DNA from: Chitinophagaceae bacterium
GTDB taxonomy: Bacteria; Bacteroidota; Bacteroidia; Chitinophagales; Chitinophagaceae
Direction of reading: 5' to 3'
Assembly: GCA_947476485.1 (NCBI GenBank)
Contig: CANJQU010000017.1
Coordinates: 1 to 49,818 of the forward strand
DNA: 49,818 nt
Under the pieces are notes generated by a model. That model was not told the origin of the DNA. It worked only from the letters and a program-made list of their open reading frames with translations, and searched no databases. This document shows positions 25,126 through 31,214 of the stretch, in pieces. Positions within the stretch are counted from its first letter, which is position 1, and every line of letters starts with the position of its first letter. The position numbers and the translations under genes are program-made.

Positions 25126-26577
25126 TTACTGCTTCATGATCGCCTGGCGGTGCAATATGTTGCCTGCATCATCGCTGACGAATATCCAATAAATACCGGG
25201 CAATATGTCCTTTACCGATAGCTGTGCCTCACGCTGTCCACGCACGCGCTGCGCACTTACCACCTGCCCGTTTACATTAACTAGAGCAATTTCCGCCATG
25301 CTGCGCTGGCCGGAATGCTGGGATATAGTTATGGTGTTTTTTGCAGGGTTAGGATATATGCTTATCTGCTCGCTCGCCTGAACTGTCTGCGCGCTTGTAG
25401 TGTTTAAATAAGTCTCGTAATAATACACGGTGTTATAACTTGGCGTAGACGGGAACGAGGTAAAGTTATAATCATACTCATGCAGTGTATCAGGCAGGTT
25501 GAAGCTGTTGTAGTGCACAACGTCCATCATCGCGGGTATCCATGAATTCAGCAGGCTGTCAAAACCATAAATATTCACAGTATCCGGGTAGCCTGCCCCA
25601 TTCAACGTTTTATGCATATAGAACATCGGCGCCCAATACGTATTGATCGGATCATACTGGTGTTCCTTCCAGGAAGTATGGAAACTATGTGTACCTGTAT
25701 AAGCGAAAGTGTCTTTAACATATCCTTCGAGTGTGCTGCCGTTATACATGTTGGTCAGCACCGTCAGCAACCTATGACTGGCGTCGTAAGTGTTGATGTA
25801 TTGCTCCTTTTCCTGCAATGGCTGGGTAAATGAAGTGTCTGTGTCGTTGGCGAAATAATCAATTTGAGTGAGGTTGCTGTCTGCGTTGTAAGTATATAAC
25901 GCTTTGGCAACGAGGTGCCATGAGCCAAGATGATATTCGTAAATGCTATCCTTGGTAAGCAGGCCGGCTGTATTGTACGTAAAAAACTGTTTGAACACAC
26001 TGTCGGGAACACCTCCGCTCAAGTGAAACCAGTAGCCGGCTTCTATGTTGTTTGCTGCATTAAAACTGTTTACATAGCTCATGTTCGTATTGATCACTGA
26101 GTCTACAAATACGTCTTTGAATGTCACCATATTCTTTGACGCATCATATCCTGCCACTGTTGCTTCATACAGCCCATACACCAATGTGAAAGGACTTTGC
26201 GTGAAATGCAGGCAGGTATCAAACAGTACCTGCGGCCTGGTGAAGACGCCTGCAAAGTTGAACATAGGAGAGGTGCTGTACGGATAGTTATACGGATAGA
26301 TCATTGTATTGAAGTCGTAGGCCGAGGTCATGTTGGTTCCATAGTTCAGGCTCACCGAATCAGATATCACACCCATACTATCGCGTGTACACTGAGCTAT
26401 TACCCTGTCTGTACTTACACCGGCGGTTGTTCGCAATACGCTATGTTCCGGATGTTGCTGCAACAATTGCGATATTACCTTGCGATGTTTCGTTATAGTG
26501 GAAGTGCCGGTTGATTTTTGTGCAAATAAAAGAGTGCTGCTAACCAGGCATAAGGCAAGAATAGAGATGTATTTCAT
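25126..26577 (-). CDS. Exported protein with T9SS C-terminal sorting domain
   Basis: 483 residues. Signal peptide (MKYISILALCLVSSTLLFAQ), a long middle part with repeated LTKDSIYEYHLGSWH- and YNADSNLTQIDYFAND-type beta-hairpin units, and a C-terminal type A sorting domain from about residue 405 (ISIYPNPAKNTITISQ ... GIYWIFVSDDAGN). T9SS moves such proteins across the outer membrane and either releases them or attaches them to the surface. The middle part recalls Bacteroidetes proteins built of RHS-like short strands, and no catalytic motif is seen. The gene starts divergent from the glutaminase gene. Surface location is well supported; the function is unknown. Confidence 0.85.
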   Translation of the reverse strand: MKYISILALCLVSSTLLFAQKSTGTSTITKHRKVISQLLQQHPEHSVLRTTAGVSTDRVIAQCTRDSMGVISDSVSLNYGTNMTSAYDFNTMIYPYNYPYSTSPMFNFAGVFTRPQVLFDTCLHFTQSPFTLVYGLYEATVAGYDASKNMVTFKDVFVDSVINTNMSYVNSFNAANNIEAGYWFHLSGGVPDSVFKQFFTYNTAGLLTKDSIYEYHLGSWHLVAKALYTYNADSNLTQIDYFANDTDTSFTQPLQEKEQYINTYDASHRLLTVLTNMYNGSTLEGYVKDTFAYTGTHSFHTSWKEHQYDPINTYWAPMFYMHKTLNGAGYPDTVNIYGFDSLLNSWIPAMMDVVHYNSFNLPDTLHEYDYNFTSFPSTPSYNTVYYYETYLNTTSAQTVQASEQISIYPNPAKNTITISQHSGQRSMAEIALVNVNGQVVSAQRVRGQREAQLSVKDILPGIYWIFVSDDAGNILHRQAIMKQ

Positions 26578-26738
26578 TGGTAAATTTTGATTCGTAAGTA
26601 TATGAATAGGGAAAGTTACTATTATTATTAATTAATTTTCCATAAATACGGAATATTAATATTTTGGATTATTTTTTTCGGATAATAAAAAATAATGTAT
26701 TTTGTGGTTACAGAATTCATTTATTAAACAGTAAGGTC

Positions 26739-27833
26739 ATGAGAAAAAACACTTCTTTCAGAAGCACAATAAATTTTCCTGTAATTTATACAATAGCCCT
26801 TGCATCAATTGTTACAGCCTTCAGCGCATGTAATAAAAGCAGGCCGGTAACTGCCGCCGTTGTAAGGGAACAACAGCTCCGCGCCGCAGTGGGAAAACCG
26901 TTGGCGCAATCCCAGGAAATAACAAGCGTAGTTACTGTTGCCAACATCCGCACCTCGGGAGATGGAAAGACAGCCAGGGTCATGTTCCTTCAAAACCCGC
27001 AGATATTGAATGTTACCGATGCCGCAGACATCGCCATGCTTAAAACTGCTTTGGACCAGAACCAGCCCGTGATGATCACTTTCGATCCATGGCAGGCAAA
27101 GGTTTCTCATGTAGTTGCTGCTTCTCAGCAAGACAAGGAATATTTTAACTCAAAACCGGTGATAGGTAGTCCGGGCACGGCGATAACGATAGACAGAACA
27201 ACGTCGGCAGAGATCATTGACCGCCAGACCGCGGCTATGGGTGTACTTGACATTACAACACCCGGCCTCACCAACGTAATTCCCGATTTCGCCACGGCCC
27301 AGCAGATGTTCGATTACATGGCCCATCAGTGCTGCCAGTTGCCTGGTCCTTACACCCTCGATCATTGCATAACTTTTCAGTATTGCCCGGACGGTTGCTA
27401 CGCCCGCGCCCACAAGATGTGCTGGATCATGAATAAAAAGTATCACTACGGCACACAAAAGGTATTCAGTTTTGCAAATGCCGGTATTGATGAGCTTTGT
27501 GTAAAAGCGCAAAAATGGAATGGCTGCTGCATCAATTGGTGGTATCACGTGGCTCCCCTGGTAACCATAAAAACACCAACAGGCCCAAAGGCCTATGTAT
27601 TCGATCCGGCGATGTTCGATCAGCCGGTGCTGCTGTCCACCTGGCTGCATTTCCAGCAAAACCCAGACTGTGTACCTACCGGCTCTGTGCCACATGTGAG
27701 TATGATAAATATCCAGCCCACATCGGCTTACAGCCCGGCAAGTTACAGTGGCTATAGTTTTGATACCGACCCAACTTTCTATTATACCAATTCAACGCTT
27801 GTCAGCTACGAGAATCTGATCTCATGCCCATAA
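26739..27833 (+). CDS. Protein-glutamine glutaminase-like deamidase lipoprotein with N-terminal pro-region
   Basis: 364 residues. A signal peptide ending AFSAC places a lipidated Cys at 31. A pro-region-like domain follows at about 60-127 (VVTVANIRTSGDGKTAR, FLQNP, PVMITFDP). The catalytic domain at about 185-315 matches protein-glutamine glutaminase of Chryseobacterium (EC 3.5.1.44), which deamidates side-chain glutamine in proteins. The Cys-His-Asp triad is visible as Cys220 in DGCYARAHKM, His270 in NWWYHVAPLV and Asp289 in YVFDPAMFD. Many extra cysteines (CCQ, CPDGC, GCC) suggest disulfides, as in an exported enzyme. A TTG at 26664 would extend the frame but would spoil the signal; the ATG is preferred. 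The next gene overlaps by 10 bases and encodes a homologue of the pro-region. Confidence 0.85.
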   Translation: MRKNTSFRSTINFPVIYTIALASIVTAFSACNKSRPVTAAVVREQQLRAAVGKPLAQSQEITSVVTVANIRTSGDGKTARVMFLQNPQILNVTDAADIAMLKTALDQNQPVMITFDPWQAKVSHVVAASQQDKEYFNSKPVIGSPGTAITIDRTTSAEIIDRQTAAMGVLDITTPGLTNVIPDFATAQQMFDYMAHQCCQLPGPYTLDHCITFQYCPDGCYARAHKMCWIMNKKYHYGTQKVFSFANAGIDELCVKAQKWNGCCINWWYHVAPLVTIKTPTGPKAYVFDPAMFDQPVLLSTWLHFQQNPDCVPTGSVPHVSMINIQPTSAYSPASYSGYSFDTDPTFYYTNSTLVSYENLISCP

Positions 27834-28177
27834 ATAGATCTTTTAGAAAGCATTTTACAAACCCGGCATACTTACGAGGTATGCTGGGTTTATTATTTTT
27901 GCTCATCGCCACGCAATCTTTTTCGGCACCTATGCACCGGAAGAAAAAGAAGAAATTGGAGACAACAATGACCGTCGCGGCGGTGCGTACCCCAAACAGC
28001 GGCGAGACATTTGTAAGGATCAGCTTCCTGCAATCGCAACGGTTTTACAAACTCCCTAACGATGCGAATCCCGCTTTTCTTGAACTCCTCAAAGCATCTG
28101 CACAAGGTCACACACCAGTTGTCATTACTCGTGCAAATGAGCAATCAGATGTTATTCTGAGCGTGAGAAAGCCATAA
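27824..28177 (+). CDS. Exported stand-alone homologue of the glutaminase pro-region
   Basis: 117 residues. An N-terminal basic-hydrophobic segment (about residues 15-35, ending QSFSAP) is probably a signal peptide. The mature part aligns to residues 64-127 of the upstream deamidase: TMTVAAVRTPNSGETFVRIS to VVTVANIRTSGDGKTARVMF, then FLQ to FLQ, and TPVVIT to QPVMIT. There is no catalytic domain. The ATG lies in the 3' end of the deamidase gene (overlap 27824-27833), so the two are translationally coupled. In the known glutaminase the pro-region keeps the enzyme inactive until cleaved; a free copy could act as an inhibitor or folding aid. That role is inference; the homology and the overlap are seen directly. 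Confidence 0.75.
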   Translation: MPINRSFRKHFTNPAYLRGMLGLLFLLIATQSFSAPMHRKKKKKLETTMTVAAVRTPNSGETFVRISFLQSQRFYKLPNDANPAFLELLKASAQGHTPVVITRANEQSDVILSVRKP

Positions 28178-28205
28178 AAAAACGGCTTAAGTATCACTTA
28201 AGCCG
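28176..28205 (-). terminator. Rho-independent terminator for the NUC1 gene (possibly bidirectional)
   Basis: CGGCTTAAGT and ACTTAAGCCG make a perfect ten-base stem with a three-base loop. On the minus strand it is followed by a run of seven T, about 50 bp after the stop of the nuclease gene. It also lies directly after the + strand pro-region gene. Confidence 0.75.
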
Positions 28206-28256
28206 GCTCTTTGCACTTACTACTATCTTTTATTTTCGTTCCGACCGCAGCGGAAA

Positions 28257-29630
28257 TTAATGCGTAGGGCCATTGTCTACAACTGCTTCGATCGCGGCCT
28301 GTACGCTTGTCGGAACATTGGACAGGAAGTCGTAACCAGTCAAGGTCTCAATAACATCTACACTCGTGCGATAGTAATCCCATGTGTGTGAATTCACAGA
28401 TTGCGTATTCGGCATCTTCAGTGTAATAACACGCGTCGAGGAACTAACACGAGTCACATCATTTGTCCCTACAGGCAGTATTACAGCTATCTTCCAGAAA
28501 TAAGCAGGTACATTGATAGCGCCACTGGCAATTGTATTCGTAGTGCCTCCATTACCGCCGCTGCCACCCTGGCCAGACCAACCTGCTATAATATATAGCT
28601 CGTTACCTGCGCTGGCAAGTGTTCTGCAATATTCTTCAAAAGCTTCCCAGGTCACCTCGTTCATATTAGGTGCCTGTGGGGTTATATTGGTCATAAGGAA
28701 CGTTACTGCGTTGTCCGAAGCGCTTCTGGTGCGGTCGCCGGATGGGCAAAGATGTCCACGGTCAAAACCTGTTCCGGTATAATTGGAAGAAGTGGCATGG
28801 TAGTAGCTGGATGGTAATGAAGCATCTGATGTAAAGCAATCGCAGCGGGAAGCAGAACCCAACCAGGCTGTGCTCAAATGCCAGCTCACCCAGTTAGCTT
28901 CGCCTTTTGAGTTATTGTACGAAAGAGCATATTGCGTCTTTACCATCAGGTAGTTGTTTGAGTTGGAGGTACTTGTTGTAGCGCCGCTTGGATTGCCCAT
29001 AGCCATATTATCATCACGGGTGGCCGCACCACCTCCGCCGCCTGTGGCAGAATTATCTGTGATCGTGACATCATCAATATTCAAACGCCCCCCGGAAAGC
29101 TTGCGAACCTGGAAACGTATATTTCCGTCGATCGCCATTGTGAAGGTCGCGGTATTAAGTGTTGTTGCAGATGTTGTAATGGTGCTGCCTGTTTGCGTCC
29201 ATGTGCTGCCGCTGTTGGTGGAATACCATAGCTGCCATGTGCTGGCTGCATCGGTTCCGTATACTCCGTGCGCTATCGTTACCTGGCTGGCGCCGGTAGT
29301 AACATTGAAGTTCATCGTAACTGTACCTGTATTCTGTATCCTTACCGATTTAGTCCCATTCTTCCTGTCTGACGATAAATTGCCAATAAGGGCGTCATTA
29401 AGATCCCATACGCCTGTTGACAATGTTACAGTTCCATCAGCATAAGCGCCTTTTGTGCCTGATTCAAACGTCTCCGGCCAGCCGGTGTAAATAACCCTGG
29501 CCTCCGAATGTTGAGATGGTGTTACCAAAGCGTCTGCGGGCGCCACCATTGTTGCGCTTCTGTCTTTTGAACAGTTGCTCATTCCAAATACAACGATTAC
29601 CGTCGTAAGCAATAAGAAAATTCTTTTCAT
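28257..29630 (-). CDS. Surface DNA/RNA non-specific endonuclease (NUC1) lipoprotein, copy A
   Basis: 457 residues starting at the ATG at 29630. Lipoprotein signal with GMSNC, Cys20. A beta-sandwich accessory domain at about 48-195 (YTGWPETFESG, WQLWYSTNSGSTW, GGRLNIDDVTI) precedes the NUC1 nuclease at about 205-445. The catalytic motif is GFDRGHLCPSGDR (DRGH at 290-293, His293 as general base), and the Mg-binding Asn is in NITPQAPNMNEVTW (Asn324). Such enzymes cut DNA and RNA without sequence preference; anchored outside the cell they would take nucleotides from the environment or break extracellular DNA. A 110-bp gap separates it from copy B. A promoter core stands 21 bases upstream of the start. 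Confidence 0.88.
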   Translation of the reverse strand: MKRIFLLLTTVIVVFGMSNCSKDRSATMVAPADALVTPSQHSEARVIYTGWPETFESGTKGAYADGTVTLSTGVWDLNDALIGNLSSDRKNGTKSVRIQNTGTVTMNFNVTTGASQVTIAHGVYGTDAASTWQLWYSTNSGSTWTQTGSTITTSATTLNTATFTMAIDGNIRFQVRKLSGGRLNIDDVTITDNSATGGGGGAATRDDNMAMGNPSGATTSTSNSNNYLMVKTQYALSYNNSKGEANWVSWHLSTAWLGSASRCDCFTSDASLPSSYYHATSSNYTGTGFDRGHLCPSGDRTRSASDNAVTFLMTNITPQAPNMNEVTWEAFEEYCRTLASAGNELYIIAGWSGQGGSGGNGGTTNTIASGAINVPAYFWKIAVILPVGTNDVTRVSSSTRVITLKMPNTQSVNSHTWDYYRTSVDVIETLTGYDFLSNVPTSVQAAIEAVVDNGPTH

Positions 29631-29651
29631 TCGGTGTGTGTTTTTGTGAAA

Positions 29652-29659
29652 CAAACGTA
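29652..29659 (-). promoter_or_regulatory. -7 promoter element of nuclease copy A
   Basis: The minus strand reads TACGTTTG, an exact TAnnTTTG, 21 bases upstream of the ATG at 29630. Copy A can therefore be transcribed apart from copy B. Confidence 0.5.
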
Positions 29660-29740: not shown

Positions 29741-31132
29741 CTATCGTGTTGGTCCATTGTCCACCTGGGATTCTATTACTGCCTGCACACTACCTGGCAA
29801 ATTAGACAGGAAGTCATAACCAGTTAATGATTCGATCTCATCTACACTTGTGCGATAGCGGTCCCAGGAATATGCTTTGACCGATTGAGTGTTTGGCATC
29901 TTCACCGCTATCACACGCGTTGCTGTCGTTACGCGCGTTACATCATCCTTCCCATCAGAAAGAATGATCGCTATCTTCCAGAAATAAGCGGGTACAACGA
30001 TTGCGCCATCAGCGATAGTGCTGGTTACACCGCCATTCCGGCCATTGCCGCCAGAGCCGGACCAACCGGCAATTATATATAGCTCATTGCCTGCAGCCGC
30101 CAGTTTTCTGCAATACGCTTCAAGCGCTTCCCAGGTAACCTCGTTCATATTTGGCGCTTGTGGCGTCATATTCGTCATCAGGAAGGTGCGGGCGTTATCG
30201 GTATCGCTACAAGTGCGGTCACCCGATGGACAAAGATGCCCGCGGTCAAAACCGCTACCCGAATAATTAGATGTAACGGCGGTGAAGAAACCAGCAGGCA
30301 ACAATGCGTCTTCGATAAAACAATTGCAACGGTCTGCAGACCCAAGCCATGCCTTGCTCAAATGCCAGCTTACCCAATTAGCAACACCCCTTGAATTATT
30401 ATACGAAAGTGCATACTGCGGTTTTATCATCAGGTAGTTGTTAGGGTTAGTAGTACGCGACGTAGCGCCACTCGGATTGCCCATTGCCATGTTATCATCG
30501 CGTATGATACCGATCTCAGCAGGCTTATCGCTATGACGGCCTTCGCCCGCGCCTGCACCATTATCGGCAATGCTGATATCGTCTATATTCAGCCTGCCGC
30601 CGGTAAGCTTCCGGATCTGGAAGCGTACATTGCCAGTAACATTCAAGACATAAGTGGCTGTGCTGAGTGATGCAGTTGACGTGGTTGTGGTGTTACCCGC
30701 CTGCTCCCATGTACTCCCGCTGTTGGTGGAGTACCACAACTGCCAGGTACTCTCCACATCTGATCCATAAACACCATGTGCTATGGACACGAGACTGGCG
30801 CCGTTGCTGAGGTCAAAGCTCATGGTCACCGTTCCTGTTTTTCCTATTCTCAGTGATCCACCTCCATTTTTCTTATCGGCTGGTTGTTTGCCGACCAATG
30901 CATCGTCCAGCTCCCAAACGCCGGTAGACAGCGTCACTGCGCCATCGGCATAACCGCCCTTAGCGCCGGTCTCAAATGTTTCCGGCCAGCCGGGATATAC
31001 TGACCTTTCATTTGCATTGCTTTGAGCGACCACCGCGGATGGCGCTGATACGTTTGCATCCGCTCCGTTCGAGCATTCGCTCATCCCTAATGCAACAATT
31101 CCAACTACGAGCAGAAAAATATATCTCTTCAT
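29741..31132 (-). CDS. Surface DNA/RNA non-specific endonuclease (NUC1) lipoprotein, copy B
   Basis: 463 residues from the ATG at 31132 (MKRYIFLLVVGIVALGMSEC, lipid Cys at 20). The layout is the same as in copy A, residue for residue in most blocks: YPGWPETFETGAKGGYADG, WQLWYSTNSGSTWEQ, GGRLNIDDISI, then the nuclease with GFDRGHLCPSGDR and NMTPQAPNMNEVTW. All catalytic residues are kept. The linker between the two domains differs (a charged GEGRHSDKPAEIG in place of the Gly-rich one of copy A). Shared ends (VDNGPT) show that the whole gene was duplicated. The longer frame up to 31201 lacks a signal at its start and is not used. It is divergent from the NUDIX gene. Confidence 0.88.
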   Translation of the reverse strand: MKRYIFLLVVGIVALGMSECSNGADANVSAPSAVVAQSNANERSVYPGWPETFETGAKGGYADGAVTLSTGVWELDDALVGKQPADKKNGGGSLRIGKTGTVTMSFDLSNGASLVSIAHGVYGSDVESTWQLWYSTNSGSTWEQAGNTTTTSTASLSTATYVLNVTGNVRFQIRKLTGGRLNIDDISIADNGAGAGEGRHSDKPAEIGIIRDDNMAMGNPSGATSRTTNPNNYLMIKPQYALSYNNSRGVANWVSWHLSKAWLGSADRCNCFIEDALLPAGFFTAVTSNYSGSGFDRGHLCPSGDRTCSDTDNARTFLMTNMTPQAPNMNEVTWEALEAYCRKLAAAGNELYIIAGWSGSGGNGRNGGVTSTIADGAIVVPAYFWKIAIILSDGKDDVTRVTTATRVIAVKMPNTQSVKAYSWDRYRTSVDEIESLTGYDFLSNLPGSVQAVIESQVDNGPTR

Positions 31133-31214
31133 AATAATCACCGGTTCCTCTAAAGCAAGCGCTGGCAGGGACCAGTGCAATATTATCATTTTCCCACGCA
31201 ATTGTGAACCCGGT

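Follow-up and report, generated by a model that had tools for sequence, protein, structure and literature searches.

A predicted protein-glutaminase gene in a Chitinophagaceae genome overlaps a gene for a free homologue of its pro-domain, a candidate inhibitor encoded across a terminator-like hairpin

Protein-glutaminases are enzymes of the food industry, and to our knowledge their natural regulation is hardly known. In a stretch of 49,818 nucleotides from a Chitinophagaceae bacterium (contig CANJQU010000017.1 of assembly GCA_947476485.1; hereafter the window), a gene for a predicted protein-glutaminase (PG) overlaps a gene for a small exported protein (Table 1). A preliminary description of this DNA had read the first product as a PG-like lipoprotein with the triad Cys220/His270/Asp289 and an N-terminal domain at about residues 64-127, and these readings held up when the protein was compared with known families and structures. 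The protein matched Gln_deamidase_2 (PF18626) with 89.3 bits (E 2.3e-25; cut-off 25), its sole Pfam match at E ≤1, with no sign of C10 peptidase membership. Its match to NF040782 (PG_glutam_Chrys) covered residues 61-363 at E 4.1e-22, and the 78.8 bits scored fell below the cut-off of 250 bits for that equivalog. We consider the product to be a predicted member of the protein-glutaminase family PF18626. After alignment, the three triad residues fell in the blocks holding the triad of the solved enzyme, given as Cys156/His197/Asp217 in PMC4214742. Among the 36 of 38 PGs that were aligned (L009 and L072 were left out as incomplete), Cys220 and His270 were invariant and Asp289 was kept in at least 90%, with one relative (L035) carrying Ala at this position; the lipobox cysteine, Cys31, recognised by eye, was likewise invariant. 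The PDB relatives of PG were the Chryseobacterium enzyme and a Flavobacterium enzyme, and the AF2 model, which places the N-terminal domain at residues 61-127, had 3a54/3a56 as its best PDB fold match. Because the model reached a TM score of 0.73 against the whole zymogen (by the 280-residue target), we infer that the fused domain probably sits as it does in the solved zymogen. The locus shares with the Chryseobacterium proteolyticum PG zymogen (3a56, 3a54/3a55; NF040782) its catalytic family and triad, and an N-terminal pro-domain of the same fold in front of the mature domain. It differs in that the enzyme is a lipoprotein that misses the NF040782 cut-off, and in that a second, free pro-domain is encoded; we know of no free pro-domain copy in Chryseobacterium.

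Table 1. Features of the PG locus and its flanks, in window positions.
Feature	Position	Strand	Basis or remark
Divergent neighbour, 483 aa, T9SS sorting tail	25126..26577	-	YD-like repeats by eye
Predicted PG lipoprotein precursor, protein deamidase, 364 aa	26739..27833	+	PF18626, NF040782, AF2 fold match
Cys31 codon, lipobox cysteine	26829..26831	+	invariant in 36 aligned PGs; lipoprotein reading by eye
Fused (cis) pro-domain, residues 61-127	26919..27119	+	AF2 blocks pLDDT 83-96; homology to 3a56 pro-region 35-106
Pro87 of fused domain	26997..26999	+	aligned to position 47 of Chryseobacterium pro-region
Mature deamidase domain, about residues 177-364	27267..27830	+	aligned to 2zk9/2ksv mature chain 1-172
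Catalytic Cys220 codon	27396..27398	+	alignment to solved enzyme
His270 codon	27546-27548	+	alignment to solved enzyme
Asp289 codon	27603-27605	+	alignment to solved enzyme
Gene overlap, 10 bases	27824..27833	+	free-gene ATG inside PG Cys-Pro-stop
Free pro-domain (candidate trans inhibitor), 117 aa	27824..28177	+	signal peptide about residues 1-35 by eye
Terminator-like hairpin, 15-pair stem, loop 3, in signal-peptide coding region of free gene	27859..27891	+	terminator scan, covariation, recoding control
T-rich stretch after hairpin	27892-27901	+	interrupted tail
CAA, Gln72 of free pro-domain, loop between strands 63-68 and 74-78	28037..28039	+	aligns with position 47 of pro-protein-glutaminase
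Hairpin after free gene	28183..28205	.	T-run on minus strand

In the free protein, a signal peptide and a basic stretch precede a domain that resembles PG residues 61-127. The homology of free and fused domains, first proposed from the letters of the window, was borne out by BLASTP (E 1e-6, in one single comparison) and by profile-profile comparison (probability 80, E 1.4e-5), so that the lack of significant profile similarity named there as refuting was not observed. The comparison with the proenzyme structure suggested in the preliminary description gave the same answer: when a 13-row profile of free domains was searched against 177,635 PDB sequences, the pro-region of pro-protein-glutaminase was the only match at E <0.01 (3a54/3a55 at E 1.4e-6, 3a56 at E 9e-6), with the matches falling in chain residues 34-91, within the pro-region. 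The AF2 model of the free protein had a mean pLDDT of 82 and a pTM of 0.59, with 10-residue blocks at pLDDT 91-96 from residue 51 onward, and its top three PDB matches in Foldseek were chains of 3a56 and 3a54, at an rmsd of 1.6-1.9 Å. Export of the second protein, also proposed earlier, is consistent with a hydrophobic N-terminal segment seen by eye, with no signal predictor, in 32 free proteins; a rough pattern found a lipobox-like motif in 14 of the 32, the window's own free protein not among them. The next PDB match of the free profile was an antitoxin (E 0.31), and an identity as a Phd/YefM-type antitoxin was considered: TIGR01552 scored 22.2 bits for the window's free protein with a cut-off of 20.8, and five of 13 relatives weakly matched PF02604 at E up to 1. 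However, the Pfam score of 21.3 lies below its cut-off of 29.8, TIGR01552 matched only one of 13 members, the free protein has a signal peptide, and the 50 listed fold matches, headed by the pro-domain and OB-like barrels, include no Phd. Given the family scores, the signal peptide and the other fold, this identity was rejected, and we regard its probability as negligible. No Inhibitor_I29 match was found at E ≤1 for the free protein or in the families listed for 13 relatives.

To follow the gene pair, 35 genomes of the window's genus were compared, of which 29 carry PG and 29 the free gene. Both genes occur in 28, PG only in one (G222), the free gene only in one (G255, which holds only a piece of it, at a contig start) and neither in five, three of which are <66% complete. 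The pair, whose conservation had been put forward as a check, is thus found in 28 of the 29 PG-bearing genomes, each time with the identical 10-base overlap that had been reported for the window and that proved exact. With four relatives outside the genus (L007, L008, L009, L102), the set came to 32 free genes and 38 distinct PG loci. The 10-base overlap is present in 29 of the 32 free loci; the overlap is 1 base in L007, and gaps of 4 and 13 bases separate the genes in L009 and L102, respectively. Since six of the 38 PG loci (L004, L037, L038, L039, L041, L043) have no adjoining free gene, the free gene is not essential to the enzyme. In a tblastn check (E ≤0.01), L038 and L041 gave no match, and L037, L039 and L043 matched only in the PG gene itself; a pattern match in L039 is a long peptidase-like ORF and not a free gene. 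Downstream of the PG of G222, a search of small size for a degraded free gene gave nothing significant (lowest tblastn E 0.019), and a plain terminator-like hairpin stands there instead.

The base that completes the ATG of the free gene is the free third position of a Ser or Thr codon of PG. Among 36 PGs it was A in 28 of 28 overlapping genes versus one of eight others (Fisher 9.6e-7, to be taken as a guide only, since related genomes are not independent), and A-ending codons make up 32-34% inside these PG genes. For the free gene, dN/dS was 0.09-0.21 in the four pairs with dS <0.8, and 0.10-0.67 in 19 further pairs with dS of 1.0-1.5, where dS is nearing saturation. A tree built by a quick method from 86 columns, with some long rows, divided the 32 free from the 36 fused domains at a branch of support 100, which suggests a single split after which free and fused domains have stayed separate. 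The conserved ATG base, the single clade and the dN/dS values argue that the start of the free gene is in use and that its protein is under purifying selection.

Beyond the genus, sampling was thin, and many of the genomes are metagenome assemblies. The free protein had matches at E ≤0.01 in 12 of 244 genomes of the family, and six of these adjoin a PG. The candidates L026-L031 were weak (best 2.9e-4), had no PG motif near and scored ≤6.9 bits against the free profile, and were set aside as chance matches. In 396 genomes of the order, the 13-row profile found only the window's own genome, and this sample evidently omits most of the genus. In 395 genomes of the class, the free profile (A3) found the own genome, G834 and G871; the match in G871 (20 bits, 16.8 on rescoring) has an internal stop and no PG motif nearby, and was taken as chance. 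Matches to the PG profile at E ≤1e-10 occurred in only three of these 395 genomes, and the free-profile search there therefore says little about other PG lineages.

We also compared free and fused domains with the pro-region of the solved enzyme. The free domain was closer to the Chryseobacterium pro-region than the fused domain of the same genome in 25 of 30 pairs (median score 25.0 vs 12.3 bits, Wilcoxon 2e-4), and the fused domain was at least equally near in five of 30. This difference suggests that the known inhibitory loop or surface may have been better kept by the free copy, as though constraint on the fused one had eased. Residue 72 of the free domain aligns with residue 47 of the zymogen, which we take to lie at the active site. 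In the PDB alignment, residue 47 is Gln in chain 3a54 and Ala in chain 3a56, the titles being 'A47Q1 mutant of pro-protein-glutaminase' and 'pro- protein-glutaminase'. Position 72 was Gln in 16, Ala in 15 and Glu in one (L102) of the 32 free domains, with 6 changes on the PG tree (30 rows). These counts rule out Gln as general at this position, where the first 13 rows gave 11 Gln and 2 Ala. The flanking Ser71 and Arg73 were invariant in the 32 free domains, an invariance that would be biased by the ORF pattern used for free genes (S-x-R-x-Y/F-K/R); when the profile was searched with no such pattern required, the same genus set was recovered along with one contig-edge copy. At the aligned position of the fused domain, the 36 PGs had Ala (18), Glu (11), Thr (5) or Pro (2), and the joint free/fused letters were Q/E in 8, Q/A in 6, Q/P in 1, A/A in 9, A/T in 5 and E/P in 1. 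The association of free Gln with fused Glu and that of a lipobox with Ala came down to only two independent pairs on supported branches and are inseparable from ancestry; the lipobox counts rest on a rough pattern, and L068, being doubtful, was not counted as having a lipobox in this comparison.

As judged from the aligned residues, the free copy carries the letter of the wild-type zymogen (Ala), that of the substrate (Gln) or, once, that of the product (Glu). The Ala-to-Gln change that crystallographers used to trap the enzyme has seemingly been explored by nature at the same loop residue. Since 15 of the free proteins have Ala, no single substrate-mimic mechanism fits all. The Gln at the very place where A47Q was engineered in 3a54/3a55 also raises a rather unlikely alternative, in which the free domain would be a substrate or timer, and the enzyme would deamidate Gln72 to Glu, thereby ending or changing the interaction. 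Half of the free domains have the Gln, and one has the Glu that would be the product, whereas the Ala of the 15 others is not deamidatable, and within residues 45-117 the aligned free domains conserve no Gln other than that at position 72.

The coding region for the signal peptide of the free gene contains the terminator-like hairpin. A terminator scan of the stretch gave 4 terminator-like sites versus 1.9 expected. When the same stretch was folded in 31 loci, 26 gave a z of -2.8 or lower versus codon shuffles; the hairpin was absent or weak in L006, L007, L040 and L056, and that of L102 lies outside the folded stretch. Covariation was evaluated in an alignment of 29 of the 32 free loci, L007, L009 and L102 being left out for their differing start sites. 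RNAalifold on these 29 overlap loci gave 12 pairs, 11 of them with double changes. A 14-pair model was paired in 89.2% of 406 cells, with double changes in 12 of the 14 pairs, and its covariation of 0.491 compared with 0.252 for shuffled alignments (none of 500 reached 0.491) and with 0.058-0.142 when the structure was slid. When the loci were recoded synonymously, at most 3 of 300 recodings folded equally well in 24 of 32 loci; in the other eight the numbers were 30 (L006), 221 (L007), 5 (L009), 7 (L033), 98 (L040), 34 (L052), 60 (L056) and 6 (L071). This control argues that the hairpin is no by-product of the encoded peptide. The stem starts 25 bases past the PG stop in 26 of 29 loci, and at least six T occur in the 10 bases after the stem, also in 26 of 29. 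The hairpin thus shows the stable stem, T-run and compensatory changes of an intrinsic terminator, with a T-rich tail that in the window is interrupted (ATTATTTTTG) and weaker than in a classical terminator; the T-run is interrupted in most rows. No Rfam match was found at E ≤1 in 26500-28400.

Intrinsic terminators and intra-operon attenuators likewise place a stem-loop and a T-rich tail between two genes. Unlike those, the element here lies within the coding sequence of the second gene and constrains its signal peptide, so that one stretch would serve as protein code and putative terminator with both arms changing together, which makes it a clear case. Of the six PG genes that have no free gene, five (all but L041) have a terminator-like hairpin 19-35 bases past their stop. 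In L102, where the free gene starts later, a terminator-like hairpin lies at that start; L009 has a strong hairpin after PG with no T-rich tail, and L007 no convincing hairpin. Since PG loci without the free gene carry a hairpin there, the free gene appears to be written across the site where the PG transcript would end. These observations suggest that the hairpin is a leaky terminator, whose predicted termination would leave less of the free domain than of the enzyme, and which may be opened by a ribosome that resumes translation at the overlap. A literature search on terminators within coding sequences returned nothing on the topic, and we claim no priority for an ORF-internal hairpin.

The most likely role of the free domain is that of a trans inhibitor. 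We favour, with slightly better than even confidence, a two-gene enzyme/inhibitor unit in which the free pro-domain would inhibit PG in trans and would be made only past PG's terminator. The first gene would yield a lipid-anchored zymogen of a protein deamidase, with the lipid on the pro-domain, and once pro- and mature domain are cut apart, the active enzyme would come loose from its anchor. The second gene would yield an exported pro-domain that docks on the mature enzyme like the fused one, with the loop Ser-(Gln/Ala/Glu)-Arg inserted into the active site. Given the export signal on the free domain, protection would take place in the periplasm or at the surface, where the inhibitor would shield the cell's own envelope proteins from the released enzyme. 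The amount of inhibitor would be set at the RNA level, most transcripts ending at the hairpin, and the inhibitor would be made by read-through, or when a ribosome restarting at the overlapping ATG prevents the hairpin from forming. Such a layout suggests a self-adjusting safety device for a surface-anchored deamidase, and the hairpin in the inhibitor gene offers a testable control of stoichiometry in Bacteroidetes. A natural trans inhibitor, if true, would be useful as a tool and would account for the survival of producers of a broad deamidase. An extended form of this proposal appears unlikely to us: here the deamidase, docked on the free pro-domain, would slowly convert the loop Gln to Glu, making the inhibitor a self-cancelling timer reset by its own target, and lineages with Ala or Glu would be locked. 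Transcription would pass the terminator only with a ribosome restarting at the overlapping ATG, a feed-forward control by which the brake would be made in proportion to enzyme translation.

Pro-domains of secreted enzymes often act as intramolecular chaperones, and a free gene that is co-oriented and overlaps with PG could accordingly supply a folding helper that acts in trans on folding or export of the deamidase. Because all 36 aligned PGs keep their own fused pro-domain, this role is less likely; moreover, the free gene is missing at six of the PG loci, and a hairpin that lowers the product would suit a helper poorly, so that we hold a folding helper to be improbable. Inhibition in trans is consistent with what is described for related enzymes. 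As described in PMC13139226 (see also PMC12791059), the cut pro-peptide appears to stay with mature protein-glutaminase or to remain attached to it, and its removal required 4 M urea in one cited case; a free pro-domain could therefore bind in trans. According to the same source, Bacteroides helcogenes pro-PG is active with its pro-domain on, at a level about 17-fold below the mature form (PMC13139226), and pro-domains are therefore not always tight inhibitors.

The preliminary description knew of no described system with this layout, a view that proved too strong given SpeB of Streptococcus pyogenes. According to portions of two articles, the adjacent and transcriptionally coupled gene spi encodes an inhibitor termed a 'propeptide analogue' (PMC2873492, PMC3462683, citing Kagawa 2005), its proposed target being protease that has become active too early, while still in the cytoplasm (PMC3462683). 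SpeB-Spi is the closest precedent for the layout, as far as these portions describe it: both systems combine an enzyme of papain-like fold with an adjacent small gene for a propeptide analogue, and at this locus, too, the adjacent gene is a homologue of the enzyme's own pro-domain. However, SpeB is a C10 peptidase and the proposed place of action of Spi is the cytoplasm, whereas a deamidase and a free domain with an export signal are found here, and the same portions mention neither an ORF-internal terminator nor a Gln/Ala/Glu loop. The Bacteroides C10 proteases are described in these excerpts as lipoprotein zymogens that would lose their lipid link on maturation; their inhibitors Bfi and Bti, like staphostatin of staphopain, are co-transcribed and adjoining, and Bfi and Bti are likely to be in the periplasm and membranes (PMC2873492, PMC3462683). 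Unlike the free pro-domain, Bfi and Bti are staphostatin-like and, in the excerpt concerned, have no significant identity to propeptides or Spi (PMC2873492). Stand-alone relatives of pro-domains that inhibit the parent enzyme class include the I29 propeptide-like inhibitors (CTLA-2alpha, crammer, BCPI) and the Plasmodium subtilisin propeptide-like inhibitor of SUB1 (extracts of PMC4089206 and PMC6993865); as presented there, they differ in their unrelated domains, their peptidase targets and their eukaryotic origin. A literature search of limited reach found no free or trans-acting PG pro-domain. As far as the literature was searched, the free-pro-domain layout on a deamidase, the Gln/Ala/Glu at the presumed active-site loop and the hairpin in the inhibitor ORF are new.

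On the other side of PG, the only Pfam domain of the divergent neighbour at E ≤0.001 is its T9SS sorting tail. Its core lies beside PG in 35 of 38 loci, including all six without the free gene, and in the three exceptions (L009, L035, L063) the contig ends inside the PG gene or ≤150 bases from it. The core has no second copy in its own genome, and 23 other matches start at residue 337 or later. Possibly the deamidase acts on this neighbour or works together with it. The adjoining T9SS cargo also bears on a reading that we hold to be quite improbable, in which PG would be a weapon and the free domain its antidote, an immunity protein that protects from the related deamidases of neighbouring competitors. 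The free domain is exported, forms a single clade and is linked to the enzyme in the genus, as an immunity protein might be, but no delivery gene was found among the seven neighbours scanned, the enzyme is a lipoprotein zymogen, and the four closest free-gene pairs show no fast diversification (dN/dS 0.09-0.21). Genes on the side of the locus opposite the T9SS neighbour vary. The single promoter-like site from a sigma-70 scan is fewer than the mean of 3.6 sites in shuffled sequence. The hairpin that follows the free gene has its T-run on the minus strand, and therefore chiefly resembles a terminator for the convergent gene.

The terminator-like hairpin lies within the coding sequence of the free pro-domain gene, and is listed with the neighbours of the deamidase gene in the table below. 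The predicted T9SS-exported protein could possibly be a partner or substrate of the deamidase. At L102, one of the related loci, its homologue is placed past the free gene.

Hairpin and neighbouring genes of the deamidase locus
Feature	Position	Strand	Remark
Terminator-like hairpin inside the free gene	27859-27891		Strong covariation
Predicted T9SS-exported protein, 483 residues	25126-26577	-	Adjoins deamidase in 35/38 loci
DNA/RNA non-specific endonuclease (PF01223)	28257-29654	-	Neighbour of 29741-31201
DNA/RNA non-specific endonuclease (PF01223)	29741-31201	-	Neighbour of 28257-29654

Both endonucleases, which lie beyond the free gene, carry a lipoprotein-like signal as judged by eye, and an endonuclease homologue occupies the equivalent position at L034 and, again judged by eye, at L100. 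At two loci that do not have the free gene (L039 and L043), inspection by eye placed a T9SS metallopeptidase-like gene ∼210 bases downstream of the deamidase, and its product could be the protease that activates the enzyme. In one relative, the deamidase (L035:149-1228) has Ala where the catalytic Asp289 is expected, and the free gene is kept.

Further deamidases of the PF18626 family, 283-285 residues in length, are encoded in the same bacterial family at L011, L012, L013, L015, and L017. These proteins have a long C-terminal extension and, as judged by eye, lack both a signal and a fused pro-domain. They constitute a second deamidase type, which is perhaps cytosolic. The L014 deamidase resembles this type, but its start is signal-like.
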